Source: Candidatus Gallacutalibacter pullistercoris (GTDB lineage Bacteria; Bacillota; Clostridia; Oscillospirales; Acutalibacteraceae). Taken from it: DNA of 35,712 nt. Numbering within the stretch: the stretch's first letter is position 1; each line of letters opens with the position of its first letter. Location of the stretch: positions 1-35,712 of the forward strand of contig DVIY01000162.1 of NCBI GenBank assembly GCA_018710915.1, in the 5' to 3' direction. A program made the position numbers and the translations under genes. This document shows positions 1,994 to 16,275 of the stretch, piece after piece. Below the pieces are notes generated by a model. The model did not search any database and had not been told where the DNA came from. It saw nothing but the letters and a program-made list of their open reading frames with translations.

Positions 1994-2079
1994 GACGATT
2001 CTCCTTTATGTGTAATTTGAACGTAGTCTATTCATCAGTTCGCGGCAAATCATACCCAAATCCGCGGGGAAGCGGCTTT

Positions 2080-2355
2080 AAAATTTGCACCTGCTGCCCC
2101 GCGGCATAAAAGTTTTACTCGATTTTTTTCAAAAAATCGTGGGGGATCCAAAGGGGTGTTGTTTGCCAGTGGCAAACGTTGAACACCGACCGAGCCGGCA
2201 GGCGAGAACAAAACCCCTTGGTCGCCCGTCGCAACGGGCGAAACACCCCAACCTAAAGGGCGCATTTTTGAAAAGTGAATTTAAAATCTTCCGGGGGAAG
2301 ATTTTAAAGAGAAAAACTTTTTGAAAGAAAAAAAGTTTTTCTTCTCTGTTCCTGA
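2080..2355 (+). repeat. Structured interspersed repeat, copy A (about 276 bp)
   Basis: Aligns over its whole length with the reverse complement of 5481-5757. Shared blocks: AAAATTTGCAC, CCCCGCGGC(A/G)TAAAAGTTTTACTCGATTTTTTTCAAAAAATCG, CCAAAGGGGTGTTGTTTGCC(A/G)GTGGCAAACGTTGAACACCGACCGAGCCGGCAGGCGAGA, GGCGCATTTTTGAAAAGTGAATTT, GAGAAAAACTTTTTG.AAGAAAAAAAGTTTTTCT. Contains several perfect inverted repeats. Confidence 0.9.
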
Positions 2356-2409
2356 AAGTAGAATCAGAACCGGCAGCACACACCGGTGCGCTCCCTACAG
2401 ATATCCCAA

Positions 2410-5480: not shown

Positions 5481-5757
5481 TCAGGAACGAAGCAGAAAAA
5501 CTTTTTTTCTTGCAAAAAGTTTTTCTCTTTGAAATCTTCCACTGGAAGATTTCAAATTCACTTTTCAAAAATGCGCCTTTCAGGAAAAGATTTTCGCTGC
5601 CTGCGGGCAGCGACGCAAAGGGGCGCCGGTCTCGCCTGCCGGCTCGGTCGGTGTTCAACGTTTGCCACCGGCAAACAACACCCCTTTGGAAACCCTGCGA
5701 TTTTTTGAAAAAAATCGAGTAAAACTTTTACGCCGCGGGGAAGCAAGTGCAAATTTT
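5481..5757 (-). repeat. Structured interspersed repeat, copy B (about 277 bp, inverted relative to copy A)
   Basis: Reverse complement aligns end to end with 2080-2355; lies in the recX-rimO gap. Confidence 0.9.
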
Positions 5758-5807
5758 GATGCTGTTCCCACGCGAATCGACTGCGGGGGCTACGCCGGCT
5801 TCGGAAT

Positions 5808-16099: not shown

Positions 16100-16275
16100 A
16101 GACAGCCAAAAATTTGCAGAAGCTGACCCGCGACGCAAAAATTTTCGTCCAAGTCTTCGCTACCGCTACGGTCGGCGCCTTGTTTGTGTGCCACTGGCAC
16201 ACAGCGCCCTTTTATAAAAGGTGGCGAGGGGGCAAGGGGGCGAGAAGCCCCCCAAACAGGCGAAGCCTGCATGAT
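16100..16275 (-). repeat. Divergent third relative of the structured repeat (copy C)
   Basis: Minus strand AAAGGGCGCTGTGTGCCAGTGGCACACAAACAAGGCGCCGACCG resembles copy A AAGGGGTGTTGTTTGCCAGTGGCAAACGTTGAACACCGACCG. Core 16170-16212; outer limits uncertain. Confidence 0.6.

Follow-up and report, generated by a model that had tools for sequence, protein, structure and literature searches.

Among described mobile elements, those of the IS200/IS605 family carry single-stranded DNA hairpins which, together with short pairing to bases on the target side, guide cleavage. The palindromic elements of Rickettsia and Wolbachia are short sequences that occupy intergenic DNA and RNA genes and that also lie in frame within protein-coding genes (PMC2229807). 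Compensatory changes have been described in the hairpins of REPINs (PMC3116915), and a survey of REP sequences makes no mention of Clostridia or Firmicutes (PMC3733652). Here we analyzed a repeat present in the window, i.e., the whole stretch of 35,712 nt from Candidatus Gallacutalibacter pullistercoris, whose hairpins had been predicted to remain intact through compensatory changes. We found that this repeat is composed of two nested mobile elements, which we name XY and M, and is not one structured unit. We found no account of the XY/M family in the open-access papers that we searched, although this does not prove that none exists.

Composition and distribution of XY and M

The two main copies of the repeat, A (~2062–2356, forward strand) and B (~5481–5777, reverse strand), are inverted relative to each other, are 86% identical and lie in opposite orientations relative to their transcription units. 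The original prediction described h4, h5 and a nested hairpin, and all of these strings were found at their expected positions in both copies (Table 1). When folded as RNA, the 277-nt copies A and B present z-scores of −4.2 and −4.3 relative to 200 dinucleotide shuffles, none of which folds as well, and copy A folded as single-stranded DNA presents a z-score of −5.8 relative to dinucleotide shuffles. XY comprises a succession of about seven hairpins, of which three (h2-h3-h4) constitute its core. It spans ~300–340 bp in the genus of the window and is represented by the 80-nt core elsewhere. When the copies of the genus were cut and aligned, base XY copies presented the order h1-h2-h3-h4-h5-h6. 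In L020/L026, L025 and L092, two other hairpins (AAGTTGACGC..GCGTCAACTT and GAAGAAAGC..GCTTTCTTC) stand in place of h5, which resembles the insertion of yet another element.

The loop of h3 contains M, a block of ~52 nt, in A, in B and in other XY copies, and this block can be found in either orientation. In M-free copies (L014, L016, L021, L028, L058 and L061), the two arms of h3 are separated only by a short loop, e.g., CCAAAGGGG-CAAAG-CCCCTTGG, and the M block is all that distinguishes these copies from those bearing M. The sequence GGTGTT[GTTTGCC-RGT-GGCAAAC]..AACACC is present in both A and B; it had been considered a nested hairpin of the repeat itself and belongs in fact to the separate inserted element. 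M is organized as follows: a GG of the target, P1, the P2 hairpin with the apex CC(A/G)GTGG, an optional P3, P1' and the conserved tail GACCGA[GCC]GGCA[GGC]GAGA. It measures 52 nt in A and B and ~50–70 nt elsewhere. P1 is about 5 bp long and is partly completed by the GG of the target, and its arms are separated by 20–45 nt. The base preceding the parsed P1 is a G in 108 of 116 distinct M cores. P2 of M resembles h5 of XY in its CC(A/G)GTGG-type apex. In the third, decayed copy of the window, the M-like element is located within h2 instead of h3, again after GG.

Table 1. Positions of the XY and M features in the window
Feature	Position	Strand	Basis
Copy A, h1 (CCGCGGGG .. CCCCGCGG)	2062..2104	+	sequence
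Copy A, h2 (CGATTTTTT-TC-AAAAAATCG)	2120..2139	+	sequence; covarying across copies
Copy A, h3 5' arm (CCAAAGGGG), M inserted in h3 loop	2148..2156	+	sequence, copy alignment
Copy A, element M, TGTT[GTTTGCC-AGT-GGCAAAC]GTTGAACACC-GACCGAGCCGGCAGGCGAGA (+1 nt)	2157..2208	+	missing in M-free copies
Copy A, conserved 3' part of M, hairpin P4 (GACCGA[GCC]GGCA[GGC]GAG)	2188..2206	+	conserved, covarying
Copy A, h3 3' arm (CCCCTTGG)	2214..2221	+	sequence
Copy A, h4, TCGCCCGT-CGCA-ACGGGCGA, CGCA loop conserved	2222..2241	+	sequence; covarying
Copy A, h5, TTTAAAATCTTCC-GGG-GGAAGATTTTAAA	2280..2308	+	sequence
Copy A, h6, AT-rich	2309..2346	+	sequence
Copy A, XY core model match (h2-h3-h4, M inside)	2109..2244	+	78.0 bits, E 5.5e-21
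Copy B, h6	5495..5527	-	sequence
Copy B, h5, TTTGAAATCTTCC-AGT-GGAAGATTTCAAA	5528..5556	-	sequence
Copy B, h4, TCGCTGCC-CGCA-GGCAGCGA, loop CGCA	5594..5613	-	sequence
Copy B, h3 3' arm (CCCCTTTG)	5616..5623	-	sequence
Copy B, element M, 52 nt	5629..5680	-	sequence
Copy B, h3 5' arm (CCAAAGGGG)	5681..5689	-	sequence
Copy B, h2	5698..5717	-	sequence
Copy B, XY core model match	5591..5728	-	76.5 bits, E 1.5e-20
Third XY core copy, decayed, upstream of Tex-like gene	16138..16272	+	31.1 bits, E 3.2e-7
Third copy, M-like element (tail GACCGTAGCGGTAGCGAAGAC, differs)	16153..16207	-	sequence

The genome that contains the window (2.35 Mb in 269 contigs) matches the repeat at 55 places, and four further genomes of the genus contain many more copies. 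Four loci of genome G000 (L009–L012, on contigs C220, C126, C32 and C31) carry identical copies of M with common flanks near contig ends. The larger repeat around them interrupts the assembly, and copy numbers are therefore underestimated. In practice, these elements matter because identical copies lie at the contig ends of a fragmented assembly and because gene callers annotate M as protein.

We built a covariance model of the XY core (h2-h3-h4) from 18 M-free copies and searched 149 genomes of the order with it. Matches were obtained in 24 genomes from 11 families (eight of them with E-values below 1e-7), and several carriers present at least 30 matches per genome. The layout AAAGTTTTCG-h2-h3-h4(CGCA loop)-GAAA is kept across the order and its stems vary freely. 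XY was absent from the phage collections, and an Anaerotruncus plasmid provided the single, partial match of the plasmid collections. Of 297 genomes of the order, 17 contain the 19-nt tail of M, and the reversed control pattern gave zero matches. At least 120 stretches of the species collection also carry the tail, among them records of Acutalibacter, Neglectibacter, Ruminococcus and Lachnospiraceae. The sole match in Geminicoccaceae (L214) does not possess the upstream structure and is probably due to chance. In the phage and plasmid collections, the sole credible relative of M was found in two Ruminococcus phages.

Kept pairing and probable exchange of hairpins

Across 18 XY core sequences of the genus, 97.6% of the cells are paired, relative to 84.1% in shuffles, and both members changed in 14 of the 23 pairs. 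The covariation score is 0.453 (0.192 when shuffled). The results are similar for the 69 distinct cores of M: 96.8% of the cells are paired (78.5% in shuffles), 12 of the 15 pairs changed on both sides and the covariation score reaches 0.476 (0.125 when shuffled). For neither element was the observed score attained by any of 500 shuffles. These shuffles preserve the composition of the columns and not relatedness; relatedness is preserved when the partner is slid by 1–3 columns, a control in which pairing collapses for both the XY core and M. Covariation extends to P4, the short stem of the conserved M tail (GCC/GGC, GGC/GCC and ACC/GGT). Among 65 distinct rows of the core collected across the order, nearly all stem cells remain Watson–Crick. 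A total of 38 distinct versions of the h4 stem surround the CGCA loop, of which 26 are perfect and 10 present one mismatch, which is not what stem-breaking changes at neutral frequency would produce. Collecting the copies therefore strongly supports the prediction that structure rather than sequence is kept, and this is true across dozens of copies and many families, although not for the repeat as a single structured unit. An outer stem around h3 and h4, which looked likely by eye, does not covary (mean run of 3.32 both observed and shuffled) and was rejected.

We next asked by which steps the stems evolve. In 58 copies of XY from five genomes, the version of h4 predicts neither the version of h2 or h6 nor whether M is present (mutual information similar to that of shuffles, P = 0.19–0.50), and weak linkage could escape this test. 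As a positive control, each arm of h4 strongly predicts the other (mutual information of 1.83 relative to 0.82). This independent assortment indicates that whole hairpins appear to be exchanged between XY copies, as in mosaic repeats. In addition, 27 pairs of perfect h4 versions are exactly one base pair apart, which indicates that single paired steps occur too. The paired changes that had been noted between A and B are real. However, because versions of neighboring hairpins assort independently, the h4 difference between A and B need not represent a series of separate compensatory mutations.

RNA or one strand of DNA tolerates G-T mismatches better than A-C mismatches, and a duplex or a cruciform makes no distinction between them. 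The mismatches of h3 and h4 in XY comprise 18 G-T and two A-C when counted without alignment bias (P ~ 0.0004; two-sided binomial test); counts from the covariance-model alignment were set aside since such alignments favor G-U. The 18:2 bias points to one strand, as a two-stranded cruciform would give none. Terminator-like controls present 38 G-T and 18 A-C. P2 of M (positions 2–8) presents six mismatches of each type, and h4 within the genus presents three of each. The excess of G-T thus suggests a single-strand structure for XY (RNA or single-stranded DNA), a signal that comes mainly from h3, and these counts are silent on the strandedness of M. The balanced counts of P2 and of h4 within the genus weigh against the recognition of a single strand.

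Alternatively, the structure might not be under selection at all: template switching from arm to arm during replication would perfect the palindromes, and each paired change would represent one mutational event. Quasipalindrome correction is established in other bacteria. It would account for stems that differ entirely from copy to copy and are nevertheless almost perfectly Watson–Crick (681 of 696 cells in h4). However, this process does not predict the conserved loops (CGCA in h4 and CC(A/G)GTGG in P2), nor the stem lengths conserved across families, nor the G-T excess of h3 and h4, and P1 of M covaries despite the distance between its arms. We consider this explanation somewhat unlikely, and we infer that selection, rather than palindrome-repairing mutation, keeps the stems paired. 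These elements, in which dozens of stems differ freely under a constant shape, constitute a natural experiment that allows the two processes to be directly tested against each other.

Empty sites and insertion sites

The gap between cysE and cysS measures 435 nt in the window and ~175, 112 and 57 nt in the relatives G001, G002 and G004, respectively, which do not possess XY at this position. Likewise, XY is missing from the gap between recX and rimO in G002 and G004. G001 does possess an XY behind recX; this copy is M-free, and its h2, h4, h5 and h6 are formed by different stems. These empty orthologous sites in close relatives establish that XY is mobile. Most of its insertions are located in intergenic DNA. 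The left neighboring gene is on the same strand as XY in 26 of 40 copies, which is only a weak bias, and a strict orientation of XY relative to genes was rejected.

It is conceivable that XY is a functional structured RNA that spread as a repeat, such as a 3'-UTR stabilizer, a processing site or a terminator, with selection acting on the transcript. The strong folding, the strand bias of the left neighbor and the G-T excess of h3 and h4, whose direction is that of the terminator-like controls, are all in line with such a role. However, the 26:14 bias is weak, A and B are opposite relative to transcription, close relatives possess the same genes without XY and M is also inserted within coding sequence and a tRNA gene. 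Moreover, no Rfam family matched at the gathering score, and permissive scans gave chance-level scores alone. These observations make an RNA function quite unlikely.

Insertions of M follow short runs of G and are found in XY, in other repeats, alone, in a tRNA gene and in protein genes. In a TnpV gene (PF14198; L124), the sequence TGGGGG|M(63 nt)|CAGCGG corresponds to the empty site TGGGGG|CAACGG of WP_001129922.1 (TGGGGGCAACGG); the insertion is in frame and target duplication is absent at this junction. In MobA/VirD2-type relaxases of two genomes (PF03432; L140 and L039), M adds 23 residues in frame at the residues MWG (69 nt net), with one base lost at the junction, and the relaxase homologues of G177 and Cohnella do not possess this insert. 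These sites demonstrate that M is mobile and that it enters coding genes in frame, as well as being nested in XY. In L148 (~1960–2090), M lies antisense within a tRNA-Glu-like gene of a tRNA array, and ten other tRNA genes were identified by ARAGORN within the same 8 kb. The junctions of M in this tRNA gene and in TTGAGGGG repeats offer no empty site that is clean to the base.

Several other insertions were observed. In TnpV genes of several lineages (L124, L165, L200, L125, L134 and L213), M recurs at one W-G codon pair. The two relaxases have diverged, and their M elements occupy one position but differ in the stems of P2 and P3; it is possible that M was repeatedly inserted at this preferred site. 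One long ORF without Pfam match (L122) contains two in-frame M elements. Finally, seven loci (L041, L050, L130, L142, L210, L244 and L030) present M within another widespread hairpin repeat, CCTTCCCCTTTGAGGGG..AGGTGG..GGATGAGG, in which the junctions are imprecise at the level of single bases.

The precise insertion of M and the formation of P1 with the target GG raise the question of whether M behaves like a minute intron or a bypassed element and is thereby lost from the message; the GG of the 5' exon would then pair with M as in the P1 of introns. Two of the TnpV copies (L125 and L134) would agree with this, as M shifts the frame and leaves the right part of the gene intact, whereas the frame is kept in L124. 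However, the reading frame runs uninterrupted through M in both TnpV (63 nt) and the relaxase (69 nt net), in agreement with read-through. Moreover, the M of the tRNA gene is antisense, and M is also present in intergenic repeats. Known self-splicing introns are far longer than 50–70 nt. Removal from the message therefore appears highly improbable.

Candidate mobilizers and comparison with known systems

Among the ORFs located within 2 kb of M (8-kb loci), no family was found in more than three loci and the shared ones were ordinary genes. An autonomous partner adjacent to M was rejected, since no ORF family accompanies M. Using family cut-offs, the Y1 transposase was absent from 12 of 13 carriers of XY/M with 97–100% completeness, IS110 from 10 of the 13 and RVT_1 from seven of the 13. 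All three were absent from G002, G004, G051 and G042. The Y1 transposase of the genome containing the window is an ordinary IS200, and M is not found nearby. RAYT/IS200, IS110 and group II/retron-type reverse transcriptases were each rejected as a common mobilizer because each is missing from carriers: none of them can play this role, unless the copies in these genomes are relics. This raises the question of what moves XY and M, and the absence of all three enzymes from several near-complete carriers also counts against a mobile nest recognized by its shape.

Nevertheless, we consider that XY and M probably represent such a nest of two non-autonomous mobile elements recognized by shape. XY would be an interspersed, mosaic chain of hairpins inserting mostly between genes. 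M would insert after runs of G, often inside hairpins and in either orientation, with the target GG completing P1. Stems would be altered by single-pair steps and by swaps of whole hairpin versions between copies, and they would stay paired because a trans-acting mobilizing or processing factor recognizes the single-stranded hairpin, either in the single-stranded DNA of replication or in RNA. This recognition by a candidate factor is our inference, and the signal for a single strand comes mainly from h3. Much more tentatively, XY and M could constitute an undescribed clostridial class of mobile elements recognized by shape. A trans-acting enzyme other than the Y1 transposase, IS110 or a reverse transcriptase would move them, hairpin versions would be freely exchanged between copies, and M would select its sites, some of them in frame in the genes of mobile elements, by pairing with the target GG.

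Both elements resemble MITEs in being small non-autonomous insertions that fold strongly, but the terminal inverted repeats and target duplication of MITEs were not seen for M. The inclusion of the target GG in P1 is reminiscent of IS200/IS605 elements; in contrast, the Y1 transposase is missing from most of the carriers that were tested. XY resembles REP, REPIN and BIME sequences as an interspersed mosaic of hairpins and, as in BIMEs, the modules h2, h4, h6 and M are combined differently among the 58 copies. Unlike REP/BIME sequences, however, it contains three to seven different hairpins in a fixed order, and most carriers (12 of the 13 tested) do not possess the Y1 (RAYT-type) transposase of the REP/RAYT system. 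We noticed no GTAG or CGTC tag adjoining a 20–40-nt palindrome, another trait of REP/RAYT systems. XY works like a mosaic REP/BIME repeat in which the link to RAYT is missing.

M is most similar to the Rickettsia palindromic elements, as it is found in frame in TnpV and relaxase genes, in intergenic repeats and in a tRNA-Glu-like gene. Those elements measure 105–146 nt and present a 12-bp terminal inverted repeat, whereas M, with 50–70 nt, is about half as long and does not possess such a repeat. M also differs by its multiple stems, its conserved 3' hairpin and its P1 of ~5 bp completed by target bases. Finally, the Rickettsia elements are confined to one genus, and M spans many families of Clostridia. 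M thus works like a Rickettsia palindromic element while departing from it in length, terminal repeats and host, and it extends the coding palindromes known from Rickettsia and Wolbachia to Clostridia of the gut and rumen, across an entire order.
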